A stretch of 42,501 nucleotides of DNA from Clostridia bacterium (lineage in GTDB: Bacteria > Bacillota > Clostridia > Christensenellales > Aristaeellaceae): the NCBI GenBank assembly GCA_017463245.1, contig JAFTPN010000076.1, positions 1 to 42,501 of the forward strand. The letters run 5' to 3'. Position 1 is the stretch's first letter, and each line of letters starts with the position of its first letter. Under the pieces are notes generated by a model. The model ran no database searches. It was not told the origin of the DNA and saw only the letters and a list, made by a program, of their open reading frames with translations. Shown one piece after another: positions 46 through 35,790 of the stretch. Both the position numbers and the translations under genes were made by a program.

Positions 46-135
46 GTAGGGGCGATCTGTGATCGCCCGCACGCCGCACCTATTGCCCAGTAGGCAGAAA
101 AAGCAACGTGGCGGGCGAACACAGTTCGCCCCTAC
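46..135 (+). repeat. REPIN copy 1 (REP doublet, 90 bp)
   Basis: Two 25-nt palindromic REP units face each other. The left unit (46-70) begins GTAGGGGCGATCTGTGATCG and the right unit (111-135) ends GAACACAGTTCGCCCCTAC. Each is itself a palindrome, and the two ends are imperfect inverted repeats, so the whole element can fold as one hairpin around a 40-nt centre. A second copy lies at 30026-30116, with the same flanking caaat on its left. Both units also occur inside the transposase gene at 34700-35197. Confidence 0.85.
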
Positions 136-8637: not shown

Positions 8638-8662
8638 ACGGGCGATCGCAGATCGCCCCTAC
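8638..8662 (-). repeat. Solo REP unit
   Basis: A single 25-nt palindrome of the REPIN family (GGGCGATCGCAGATCGCCCC core) lies in the spacer after the MFS gene. No facing partner is seen nearby. Confidence 0.7.
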
Positions 8663-8967: not shown

Positions 8968-10317
8968 TTACACCTTGAAGTTCACGGACTGGTCGCCCTG
9001 GTCGTTGTCGCCAAACTTGTAGTCGTTGCCGGGCAGGACAGCGTTCAGGATGATGCCCACCAGGGAAGCCACGGCCAGGCCGGACAGGCGGATGGTCACT
9101 TCGCCAATGTTGAAGATGATCGCGCCAGCGTTGGAGAAGTTGATGCCCAGAGCCAAGGACATGATCAGAGCAGCGATGATCACGTTGCGGGACTTGGAGA
9201 AGTCCACCTGATTCTCAACAATGTTGCGAACGCCGACAGCGGAGATCATGCCGTAGAGGATCATGGACACGCCGCCGATGGTAGCAGCGGGCATGCAGGA
9301 GATCAGAGCAGCAAACTTGGGGCAGAAGGAGAACACGATGGCGATCACAGCCGCCAGACGGACAACGCCGGGATTGTAGACCTTGGTCAGAGCCAGTACG
9401 CCGGTATTCTCGCCATAGGTCGTGTTGGCGGGAGCGCCGAACAGAGCAGCCAGAGAAGTGGCCAGGCCGTCACCCAGCAGCGTGCGATGCAGGCCGGGCT
9501 CCTTAACGAAGTTCTTGCCAACCGTGGAGGAGATAGCGCAAATATCGCCAATGTGCTCCATCATGGTCGCCAGAGCGATCGGAACCATGGTGATCAGCGC
9601 AGAAATCAGCAAGGAGACATCCACACCAGCAAACAGGGAGAAGGCAGTATCTTCCATCTTCAGGGGGAGGCCAATCCATGCAGCCTGAGCCACAGGAGTG
9701 AAGTCCACCATGCCGCACAGGGCAGCCACCGCATAGGAACCGACAACGCCCAGCAGGATCGGGATGATCTTGAACATGCCCTTGCCCCAGATGTTGAAAG
9801 CAATCACAATGCCCACCGCCAGGATGGCAATCCACCAGTTGTTGGCGCAGTTGTTGATGGCGCTGTTGGCCAGCGTGATGCCAATGCAGATGATGATGGG
9901 GCCGGTGACGATCGGCGGGAAGAAGCGCATGACCTTTTCCGCACCGCAAGCCTTGAACAGAGCAGAAAGCAGCACATACAGCAGGCCAGCCGCCGCAACA
10001 CCCAGACCCGCATAGGGAATCCAGTTGGCGCCCGTGCCGCTGTTGGCCACAAGAGCCTTCACAGCCTCATAGCCGCCCAGGAAAGCAAAGGAGGAACCCA
10101 GGAAGGCCGGAACCTTCCACTTGGTCAGGAAATGGAACAGCAGCGTGCCCAGGCCAGCCCAGAACAGCGTTGCAGAAACCGAGATGCCCGCCACAGCCTC
10201 GGGGGCGTAGATCTGCGTCAGCGCAGGTACCAGAACCGTTGCGCCAAACATGGCGAACATGTGCTGGAAACCAAGCAAACCAAACTTGGCAGGAGAAAGC
10301 TTCTGATTCTCGCTCAT
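8968..10317 (-). CDS. uraA: Uracil/xanthine permease, NCS2 family (UraA type)
   Basis: Proton-coupled nucleobase transporter in the cell membrane, 449 aa with about 14 hydrophobic segments. Family marks are GFQHMFAMFGATVLVP near the N-terminus and the signature TTYGENTGVLALTKVYNP in the substrate-binding region. Uracil is the most likely substrate because the gene follows pyrR by 68 nt and shares its PyrR-type attenuator. GGAAGGGAAG upstream is a plausible ribosome site for the ATG at 10317. The stop codon abuts a modular hairpin terminator cassette. Confidence 0.93.
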   Translation of the reverse strand: MSENQKLSPAKFGLLGFQHMFAMFGATVLVPALTQIYAPEAVAGISVSATLFWAGLGTLLFHFLTKWKVPAFLGSSFAFLGGYEAVKALVANSGTGANWIPYAGLGVAAAGLLYVLLSALFKACGAEKVMRFFPPIVTGPIIICIGITLANSAINNCANNWWIAILAVGIVIAFNIWGKGMFKIIPILLGVVGSYAVAALCGMVDFTPVAQAAWIGLPLKMEDTAFSLFAGVDVSLLISALITMVPIALATMMEHIGDICAISSTVGKNFVKEPGLHRTLLGDGLATSLAALFGAPANTTYGENTGVLALTKVYNPGVVRLAAVIAIVFSFCPKFAALISCMPAATIGGVSMILYGMISAVGVRNIVENQVDFSKSRNVIIAALIMSLALGINFSNAGAIIFNIGEVTIRLSGLAVASLVGIILNAVLPGNDYKFGDNDQGDQSVNFKV

Positions 10318-14118: not shown

Positions 14119-14508
<390 letters not shown>

Positions 14509-30025: not shown

Positions 30026-30116
30026 GTAGGGGCGATCTGTGATCGCCCGCGGCGCTGCATCCATTGCCTACTGGTCAGGAAATGCAGCGTGGCGGGCGAA
30101 CACAGTTCGCCCCTAC
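30026..30116 (+). repeat. REPIN copy 2 (REP doublet, 91 bp)
   Basis: Left REP 30026-30050 and right REP 30092-30116 are identical over 25 nt each to those of copy 1. The centre is only partly similar but contains its own stem (CGCTGCAT with ATGCAGCG), so the full element folds into a longer hairpin. The left flank caaat is shared with copy 1. Confidence 0.87.
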
Positions 30117-34096: not shown

Positions 34097-34669
34097 TCAA
34101 ATGACAGTTTTCAGTTTTTGCAGGTCTTGCTGGTAAGTTTCCGTCAGGCTGCGGTTATAAATGATGGACGCCGGGTGGTACAGCGGGAACACTGCAAAGC
34201 TCTGCCCCTGCACCTGCGCCCGGGTCACCTGACCATGATGATCGCCGATGACCGCCTCCTTGCCCAGCAGCGCCTTCAGCGCCACATTGCCCAGGGTGAC
34301 GATCATTTTCGGCTGCACCAGCAGGATCTCTTCATATAAATAAGGGGTGAACAGCGCCAGCTCCTCCCGGTTGGGCGGGCGGTTCGATACGCTGCCCTTA
34401 GGGCTGACCTTGGTGGGGCGCACCTTCACCACATTGCTGATGTAGATGTCCTCCCGCCTCAAGCCCACCACCTCAAGAAAAGCGTCCAGGTTCTTCCCGG
34501 CCTTGCCCACAAAGGGGCGCCCCTGCAGGGTCTCCTGCTCACCGGGTGCTTCGCCGATGAGCATGATGGGCGGGTGATCCGCCCTGCCCTCGCCAAAAAC
34601 CAGGGTCTTTTCCTCCGCGGGCCAGAGGGTATCGAAAAATGCGCGGCAGCGCTTGCGGAACTGCTCCAT
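34097..34669 (-). CDS. Uracil-DNA glycosylase family protein lacking Fe-S cysteines
   Basis: 190 aa, family 4/5-like UDG fold. Motif A is GEAPGEQE and motif B is YHPASIIYN; VVKVRPTKVSPKG and NRPPNREELALF are also present. Where family-4 enzymes have Fe-S ligands (C-x2-C near the N-terminus and KCRPP), this one has no N-terminal Cys pair and reads KVRPT, so the cluster is absent. The paralogue at 35194 keeps the cysteines. GGAGG 4-5 nt upstream supports the start, 30 nt after the transposase. Glycosylase activity is likely but unproven. Confidence 0.88.
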   Translation of the reverse strand: MEQFRKRCRAFFDTLWPAEEKTLVFGEGRADHPPIMLIGEAPGEQETLQGRPFVGKAGKNLDAFLEVVGLRREDIYISNVVKVRPTKVSPKGSVSNRPPNREELALFTPYLYEEILLVQPKMIVTLGNVALKALLGKEAVIGDHHGQVTRAQVQGQSFAVFPLYHPASIIYNRSLTETYQQDLQKLKTVI

Positions 34670-34699: not shown

Positions 34700-35197
34700 T
34701 TACTCTTCCCATTTGCACAGGGAATCCAACTGCCATTTCAAAGGATTTTCATCGATGTATTGCCATATGTCCAGATAGCTTTCCTGACTGCGGACAATAT
34801 GATCGTGAAACGATTTTTGCCACAGGGGAAAGCCCGCCTTCTTCGTAGCCGCACCTTTGAACTGTTTCATGGCACGGGATATTGTAGGGGCGAACTGTGT
34901 TCGCCCGTCTGCATCAGGCTGGATCAACAATAGGAAATGGACATGATTGGGCATGATGCAGTAGTTCTCCACCTGCACTTCTTCATAGGTTTCATCCAGC
35001 CGAAGCATCTCTGCTTTCACGATTTCTCCGAGCGGCGAGAGCTTGGGGGCAGTGGGCGGGCGATCACAGATCGCCCCTACATCTGCCCAGAAAAGCGGCT
35101 TACGCTCGTTGGTGCAAATCGTAATGAAGTACACGCCGCATCGGGCATAGTCATACCCATCCAGACGCATCTTCTTTCGCTGGCATCTTTCCGTCAT
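34700..35197 (-). CDS. REP-associated tyrosine transposase (RAYT, Y1/IS200-like)
   Basis: 165 aa. N-terminal RLDGYDYARCGVYFITICT; HUH motif PNHVHFLL (His85, His87); C-terminal FHDHIVRSQESYLDIWQYIDENPLKW with candidate catalytic Tyr141/Tyr147. This family cuts single-stranded REP hairpins. Two REP palindromes lie inside the coding sequence, in frame. The left REP encodes about residues 40-47 (VGAICDRP) and the right REP about 98-105 (GRTQFAPT). The ATG overlaps the UDG stop as ATGA; an internal ATG at 35170 is an alternative. It sits inside an operon of house-keeping genes. Probably intact and the likely mobiliser of the window's REPINs. Confidence 0.9.
   Translation of the reverse strand: MTERCQRKKMRLDGYDYARCGVYFITICTNERKPLFWADVGAICDRPPTAPKLSPLGEIVKAEMLRLDETYEEVQVENYCIMPNHVHFLLLIQPDADGRTQFAPTISRAMKQFKGAATKKAGFPLWQKSFHDHIVRSQESYLDIWQYIDENPLKWQLDSLCKWEE
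34884..34908 (-). repeat. Right REP unit inside the transposase gene
   Basis: 24 of 25 bases match the right unit of REPIN copies 1 and 2 when read on the coding strand. The stretch is translated as part of GRTQFAPT. It faces the left unit at 35056-35080. Confidence 0.88.
35056..35080 (-). repeat. Left REP unit inside the transposase gene
   Basis: All 25 bases match the left unit of REPIN copies 1 and 2 when read on the coding strand. It is translated as VGAICDRP. Together with 34884-34908 it forms a 197-bp REP-bounded core in the gene. Confidence 0.9.
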
Positions 35198-35790
35198 TCA
35201 GCTTGCCCTGCCCCATAGATATCCCCATACAGCCCCAATTCCATCAGCTTATCCCGCAGGGACTGCATATCCTCCCAGGCCTCGCGCTTCTTGGAGGCGT
35301 CCCGCAGGAGCGCGGAAGGGTGGTAGGTGGGCATCATCCACACGCCCTTGCGCTGGAACCACCGCCCCCTGTCCCGGGTGATGCGGATCTCCGGCCCCAG
35401 GGTGTTTTTCGCTGCAGTGGAGCCCAGCAGCACGATCACCTTGGGCTGCACCAGCGCCACCTGCATCCGCAGATGGAGCTTGCAGGCCTCGGCCTCGGCT
35501 TCCTCCGGCACGCGGTTGTTGGGCGGGCGGCACTTGACGATGTTGCAGATGTACACCCTGTCCCTGGGCAGGGAAATGGCGGCCAGCATCCTCGTCAGCA
35601 GCTGACCCGCCGGGCCCACAAAGGCCAGGCCTTCCTCGTCCTCCACCTGTCCGGGACCTTCGCCGATGAACATCAGCGGCGCTTGCCTGTCGCCCTGCCC
35701 CGGCACCTTGTTGCGGATGCCCTGGTGCAGGGGACACATCCCGCAGGCCGCCACCTGATGCTCAAACAGCTCCCAGCTGATCTCCGCCAT
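35194..35790 (-). CDS. Family 4 uracil-DNA glycosylase (Fe-S)
   Basis: Thermostable-type UDG removing uracil from DNA, 198 aa. The Fe-S ligands are visible: CGMC near the N-terminus, then Cys in VKCRPPNN and in EACKLH. Motif A is GEGPGQVEDEEG with FVGPAGQLL, and motif B is TYHPSALLRD. GGGAGG 8 nt upstream supports the ATG. It follows the small membrane protein gene by 15 nt and precedes the transposase with a 4-nt overlap. Confidence 0.95.
   Translation of the reverse strand: MAEISWELFEHQVAACGMCPLHQGIRNKVPGQGDRQAPLMFIGEGPGQVEDEEGLAFVGPAGQLLTRMLAAISLPRDRVYICNIVKCRPPNNRVPEEAEAEACKLHLRMQVALVQPKVIVLLGSTAAKNTLGPEIRITRDRGRWFQRKGVWMMPTYHPSALLRDASKKREAWEDMQSLRDKLMELGLYGDIYGAGQAE

Follow-up and report, generated by a model that had tools for sequence, protein, structure and literature searches.

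In this work, we present a RAYT-like gene which we read, with somewhat better than even confidence, as a transposase gene carrying its own cognate REP pair within the reading frame, that is, as a REPtron-like unit contained in a single ORF. The gene lies in a stretch of 42,501 nucleotides of a Clostridia gut bacterium (contig JAFTPN010000076.1), which is called here the window. In this gene and its relatives the two REPs stand at fixed sites and mostly in one frame, they are constrained as DNA, covary as hairpins, and the halves of the pair change together. The pair tracks the protein-body phylogeny, and it has the same sequence as a host REP family in most of the genomes tested.

The gene occupies positions 34700..35197 on the minus strand and encodes a Y1 HUH transposase of 165 aa, with the HUH motif PNHVH and the Tyr motif YIDENP. 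Its membership in this enzyme family is indicated by the match to Pfam Y1_Tnp (PF01797, IS200-like; E 1.3e-5, 25.7 bits vs a cut-off of 23). With the model NF047646 (REP_Tyr_transpos) the protein reached 64.4 bits, below the curated cut-off of 80, and because of that score we use the label "RAYT-like", based on motifs and the association with REPs. No match was found when PDB was searched with the window protein as a single sequence, while a profile built from this protein and 44 relatives matched 4er8, the E. coli TnpArep (E 1.2e-12). The Y---NP motif, here YIDENP, and the WQ...[DE]H..R residues agree with the RAYT description in the available text of PMC6006769, in which W94, Q95, E100, H101 and R104 of the E. 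coli enzyme are the residues discussed for GTAG recognition. These are aligned to W126, Q127, D132, H133 and R136 of the window protein. In the alignment of 45 sequences (the window and 44 of 80 named loci) H85, H87 and Y147 are invariant, as are Q127 and R136, with D132 and H133 nearly so. The window enzyme is a putative catalytically active RAYT which would cleave its REP on single-stranded DNA.

The first unit, P1 (35058..35080, minus strand), is a GTAG-tagged in-frame REP of type A with a GATC stem, located upstream of the HUH motif and read as VGAICDRP; on the coding strand it is GTAGGGGCGATCTGTGATCGCCC (35080-35058). The second, P2 (34884..34906, minus strand), is of type B with a GAAC stem, stands downstream of the HUH motif and is read as GRTQFAPT; on the coding strand it is the reverse complement of GTAGGGGCGAACTGTGTTCGCCC (34906-34884) and begins 151 nt after P1. 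The core between them (34907..35057, minus strand, 151 nt) codes for the HUH motif, and the outer span of the pair is 197 bp. P1 and P2 thus form an inverted pair around the HUH motif with GTAG feet pointing outward, as in a REPIN. The folding of the 197-nt strand, with P1 against P2, is far better than that of shuffled sequences (z -5.9), and the place of P2 is a gap in E. coli TnpArep when aligned to 4er8. The first-pass annotation had proposed that the transposase gene contains an in-frame REP pair which matches the local REPINs and doubles as protein sequence, and the sequence bears this out. Two REPINs, each with an A unit on the left and a B unit on the right, lie at 46..135 and 30026..30116 of the window. 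The P1 25-mer (35080-35056) is identical with the left unit of both (25/25), and the P2 25-mer (34908-34884) agrees with the right unit of both in 24/25 bases, the differing base lying outside the palindrome. The additional claim that gene and REPINs share order and orientation we dropped as uninformative, since the A-B order of an inverted pair becomes B-A when the opposite strand is read.

Both P1 and P2 are exact members of a REP family dispersed in the window genome (G000), as expected of a RAYT. The exact pattern matched 118 times, the two units of the gene included, and a looser search gave 127 matches, with no match to the reversed control pattern in either search. The window holds also a type A unit with a TGC loop and without a listed second unit beside it (8640..8662, minus strand). 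All 17 REPINs recognised in the sampled DNA of this genome, with the gene excluded, are A+B heterodimers like the gene pair, and it is this composition that is informative on arrangement, because order is trivial for an inverted pair. For thirty of the loci the DNA had been retrieved by means of an A-unit probe, so that B+B pairs would have escaped notice; 8/8 pairs in 200 kb retrieved independently of that probe were A+B. Spacers of these REPINs measure 43-45 nt. The REP units fall within an open frame of at least 100 aa in 24/34 cases (the gene's two included) vs 97% of random intervals, a weak test of their lying outside genes because of spurious long frames.

The gene upstream (35194..35790, minus strand), presumably uracil-DNA-glycosylase-like, has a stop that overlaps the RAYT start; the ATGA overlap at 35194-35197 suggests translational coupling. 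The downstream gene (34097..34669, minus strand) is similar to the upstream one, with 39% identity over part of the length. Seven genomes of the same genus were searched for the upstream neighbour, and in four of them (G012, G004, G008 and G015) both flanking genes are direct neighbours with no RAYT between; therefore the RAYT was gained or lost here within the genus. In G014 about 1.5 kb separate the two flanking genes, and in G006 and G017 their matches lie on different contigs. The window gene is not flanked by REPs in the manner of a REPtron, the nearest listed outside unit in the window being at 30094-30116. Among the 73 relatives with enough flanking sequence, a cognate REP within 300 bp, up to 3 mismatches allowed, was found in 16 and was absent from 57. 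The whole genome of G012 holds 77 REPs of the window family and no RAYT match, so that REPs can outlast the gene or be separated from it; those of G012 are orphans, or there is an assembly gap.

Relatives were collected from the searched genomes and the 80 named loci, 135 profile matches giving 106 distinct full-length genes. Judged by hairpins, the pair is present at the same two sites in 80 of them, with only P1 in 6, only P2 in 7, neither in 10 and an odd arrangement in 3, of which L128 is one. The blind rule alone found both REPs in 76/106 genes; in codon-shuffled controls it found both in 0/2,120 and one in 22/2,120. A comparison of the region preceding the HUH motif with the following region, taken as reverse complement, gave scores of at least 12 in 81/106 genes; among 633 pairs combining different genes, which in part have REP types in common, 10% reached this value. 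Of the 81 genes with a matching pair, four were set aside for not having GTAG anchors at both sites (one of the four is flipped), and the other 77 were used further. In this set 74 genes have the P1 tag's GTA in frame 0 and 69 have P2 in its main frame; the span of the pair in relatives is 176-239 bp, and in none of the 77 is the outer span a multiple of 3. The E. coli rayT gene, taken as a control, contains no GTAG inside, the GTAG-tagged repeats being outside the gene.

Further loci were examined for this form. The 31 loci found with the NCBI model (L259-L289) yielded only 15 ORFs after filtering: 12 belong to a longer RAYT type and lack the pair, and three are of the window length type, L273 with the pair and L260 and L276 without it. 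A further 29 loci (L340-L368), two of them without a readable gene, were only the best-scoring ones of a sample drawn around a Chloroflexi relative (61 of 201 genomes with a match). Among these best-scoring loci 3/27 readable genes passed the pair score, and 10/27 have a REP hairpin at the P2 site, double-footed in 7; these relatives resemble the published in-gene REP form as described in the available text of PMC6006769. One member of that set, L356, carries REPs at both sites in the same orientation, making a direct and not an inverted pair. Carriers of the bracketing pair are otherwise mainly Clostridia, and the pair was found also in two loci (L318 and L325) of a spirochaete MAG. In L128, from position 9934 onwards (the same gene in L317), the pair is flipped, with GTAG feet inward, and read GRAGLEPAPT and VGAGSKPAQ. 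Very long insertions on the P1 side occur in L319 and L324 of a Chitinispirillales MAG (the genome of L098); the one in L319 holds both REP-like peptides and that in L324 a long DG/NG-repeat stretch.

Comparison of the two units within each of the 77 genes revealed 0 mismatches in 30, 1 in 23 and 2 in 10 (63/77 at 0-2), 3-5 mismatches in 8 and a length difference in 6, whereas equal-length units from different genes differ at 7.0 positions on average. In 61/77 genes, ties included, a gene's own P2 is the nearest to its P1 among all P2s. Distances between P1s and P2s are strongly correlated (Mantel r 0.85) and those of body and P1 only slightly (r 0.15), both at p 0.001 with 999 permutations. 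In gene pairs below 70% body identity, the same codon is used for shared amino acids at 71-87% of REP sites vs 41-46% of body sites. Across the three main length classes Watson-Crick pairing of P1 stems amounts to 90-96%, and in each class two-sided pair changes occur at 6 stem positions. On a tree built without REP residues the length of the P1 unit changes 13 times, vs 32-44 times in 200 label shuffles. Codon identity, stem covariation and the fit to the tree therefore indicate that the REP text is constrained or homogenised as nucleic acid and inherited together with the protein body.

The expectation that homologues have, in these two places, different palindromes which fit their own genomes was mostly borne out, with weak results in some genomes. 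Probes derived from the gene units were run against samples of 100-200 kb from ten genomes, with one mismatch allowed and known RAYT genes masked. P1 probes gave 71 matches in 12 own-genome cells vs 16 in 108 other cells, and P2 probes 60 vs 26 over the same numbers of cells. For P1 the clear cases, own vs other, were G076 (13/0), G372 (11/0), G477 (4/0), G000 (19/0) and G066 (10/4). Here G066 is counted twice, as it has two genes with one palindrome. For G076 and G000 the sampled contigs were ones on which REPs had already been seen, and for the others the first ten contigs were taken. The own palindrome is rare, with 0-1 own matches in 100-200 kb, in G050 (two genes), G474, G466, G471 and G473. 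With the P1 probe G474 and G471 had one own match each and G466 and G473 none; the probes of the two G050 genes found one own match each and four each in G372, and the P2 probe of the G466 gene one own match and 9 in other genomes. A probe for the GACCATYGGTC stem, run over whole genomes with one mismatch, matched in 6/6 carrier genomes (3 to 31 matches, the gene's included) and in 0/7 non-carriers. Outside the gene, units within one mismatch number only 1 in G017 and 2 in G006, yet the gene pair is intact in both. Cognate units occur in a locus's own flanks at a mean of 0.52 vs 0.036 in the flanks of other loci, with at least one such unit in the own flanks of only 23/77 genes.

Several REP families per genome are common, and the gene matches one of them. 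The unit composition of REPINs varies, and heterodimers as a general rule were rejected: the rule holds in the window genome and fails in G076, where the gene pair is a homodimer, yet 6/7 sampled REPINs are heterodimers. In G066 the outward pairs (6) are fewer than the neighbours facing inward (10). Another two units in G474 (C22:29615-29808), spaced like a gene pair at 171 nt, probably belong to a further RAYT with the same palindrome type.

To find losses of the core, 3.56 Mb were scanned with profiles for the N part (ahead of P1) and the C part (beyond P2). The HUH core is absent from three distinct genes among 139 N-to-C pairs, a number that includes copies in several loci. In the L237 remnant the N and C parts are separated by 41 nt, with one double-footed REP between them (14330-14359), just what a deletion between an inverted REP pair would leave. 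In L011, 53 nt remain between the parts and the HUH core is lost; in L290 the remaining 78 nt are bounded by GTAG and CTAC and the frame is open. These three genes show deletion between the two sites, by whatever agent. Among core matches the N part is absent in L074 (found again in L290), L010 and L071, and the C part in L069, at a contig end. The ends of truncated RAYT matches at REPs were left out of the evidence, as local alignments break at variable loops anyway. A mobile core was also considered and rejected: no convincing isolated P1-core-P2 copy was present in the 3.56 Mb scanned. The eight core matches lacking both ends had weak values throughout (E 1.6e-4 to 0.024); seven come from longer-type RAYT loci and the eighth from L135.

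The origin model of the first-pass annotation, in which REPINs are shortened forms of the REP-bounded 197-bp gene core, is not supported by these data and is in our opinion very improbable. Although the A+B composition of the gene pair recurs in 17/17 REPINs, the spacers are hardly more similar to the gene core than shuffled ones (mean best score 7.35 vs 6.83, the 95% point of shuffles being 9), the window genome has a single RAYT match at E 0.001, and convincing free copies of the core are missing from the scanned DNA. Practically negligible is the explanation by chance or by selection on the peptides alone, for which we found nothing in favour and against which stand the codon-shuffle null, the constraint at the codon level, the stem covariation and the match to the genome. 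Self-restraint, by which the RAYT, or the palindromes alone, would remove or rearrange the gene's own core, or the RAYT would bind its own DNA or mRNA hairpins and so limit its dose, we consider improbable. It would fit L237, L011 and L290, which keep N and C parts without the HUH core, the folding of the 197-nt strand, and the absence of outer spans divisible by 3, owing to which exact excision would shift the frame. However, three cases among 139 N-to-C pairs are few, a deletion bounded by palindromes needs no enzyme, and the rule on spans follows from the fixed frames.

The main rival is that the REPs are tolerated passengers, which entered two permissive loops, stayed similar through exchange with genomic REPINs, be it RAYT-mediated or by recombination, and have no function in the gene. 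We regard it as serious, though unlikely. For insertions between HuH and Y, PMC6006769 offers a "peripheral extension ... little impact on protein activity", intragenic REPs are known in unrelated genes (PMC3733652), and the relatives free of REPs (10/106) or with one REP (13/106) indicate that REP loops are dispensable for an open frame. Against mere tolerance speak the same sites, the feet-outward arrangement and mostly the same frame in 80/106 divergent genes, the intact pairs of G017 and G006 despite so few outside units, and the length of the REP unit, which tracks the protein phylogeny. Passive homogenisation accounts for the matching, and less well for the fixed sites, the frame, the feet-out orientation and the genomes with few copies. 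According to the reading of the gene as a carrier of its own cognate pair, the two REPs, which flank the HUH motif at two variable places with feet outward, would be recognised by the protein, together with the matching REPINs, on single-stranded DNA via the GTAG foot, in the way E. coli TnpArep recognises its REPs. With the pair in cis, any transfer of a working gene would bring correctly arranged REP ends, and this linkage would keep enzyme and target together while both diverge.

Tentatively, we propose that the enzyme and its matched target pair are one unit of inheritance and that the gene is the founder and reference copy of each REP family and might inactivate itself by core loss. If so, one mutation in the pair would alter the DNA target and two protein loops at once, and the pair would change in step with itself and with the genomic REPINs. 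This bears on two open questions, how a REP family spreads and why each RAYT has its own REP. As the presumed target is embedded in the gene of the enzyme, its identity could be read from the gene alone and compared with the genome, the coevolution of enzyme and target could be traced in one sequence, and some 80 candidate enzyme-target pairs become available for binding and SELEX work. It would be also a case where selection at the DNA and protein levels acts on the same bases.

Among known systems, the closest is subclass 2.4 of tnpA(REP) genes, equal to RAYT group 4. In this subclass Quentin et al. (2018, PMC6006769) described REPs within the gene that leave the frame unbroken, and we found no other account of REPs in tnpA(REP) genes. 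The statement in the first-pass annotation that such an arrangement is not commonly described is half right, in-frame REPs as such being already published there. Insertions in this subclass are generally located between HuH and Y, are variable in length and sequence, comprise canonical long and double-foot REPs, and come from Cyanobacteria, Bacteroidetes and various phyla (PMC6006769). The window gene is similar in having a REP inside the gene with the frame unbroken, NHVH and WQ fit the subclass motifs NH[IFV]H and WQ, and YIDENP differs at one place from YIxNNP, which some relatives have. Unlike the forms in the available text of that paper, the window type mostly has HuH between two single-foot REPs, which point outward and match each other; a pair bracketing HuH is not described in this text, and the supplementary figures may show one. 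With the E. coli REPtron (RAYT group 2, 4er8) it shares the Y1 HUH enzyme, GTAG-tagged hairpins and conservation of the residues discussed for GTAG recognition, but in E. coli the REPs flank the gene, there is no GTAG inside, and a gap stands in place of P2. In E. coli, TnpArep cleaves REPs in single-stranded form at a CT adjacent to the REP, its contacts to GTAG being made by residues of beta1, of the C-terminus and of the surroundings of beta4, and the mechanism of REP dissemination is called poorly understood (PMC8266576). Intragenic REPs and Rickettsia palindromic elements are likewise in-frame palindromic repeats, some genes having two, but they lie in various unrelated genes, mostly at differing sites, and in the available text of PMC3733652 they are not described as a conserved pair in their own transposase. 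A bracketing pair, concerted evolution or a match of in-gene REPs to the genome was not found in the literature searched, supplements aside. A REPIN also consists of two inverted REPs with GTAG outward, but it is short and non-coding, while the gene pair spans 176-239 bp and encodes the catalytic motif. As far as could be seen, what is new compared with all these systems is the bracketing pair, the concerted change of its halves, the constraint at the nucleotide level and the match to the genome.
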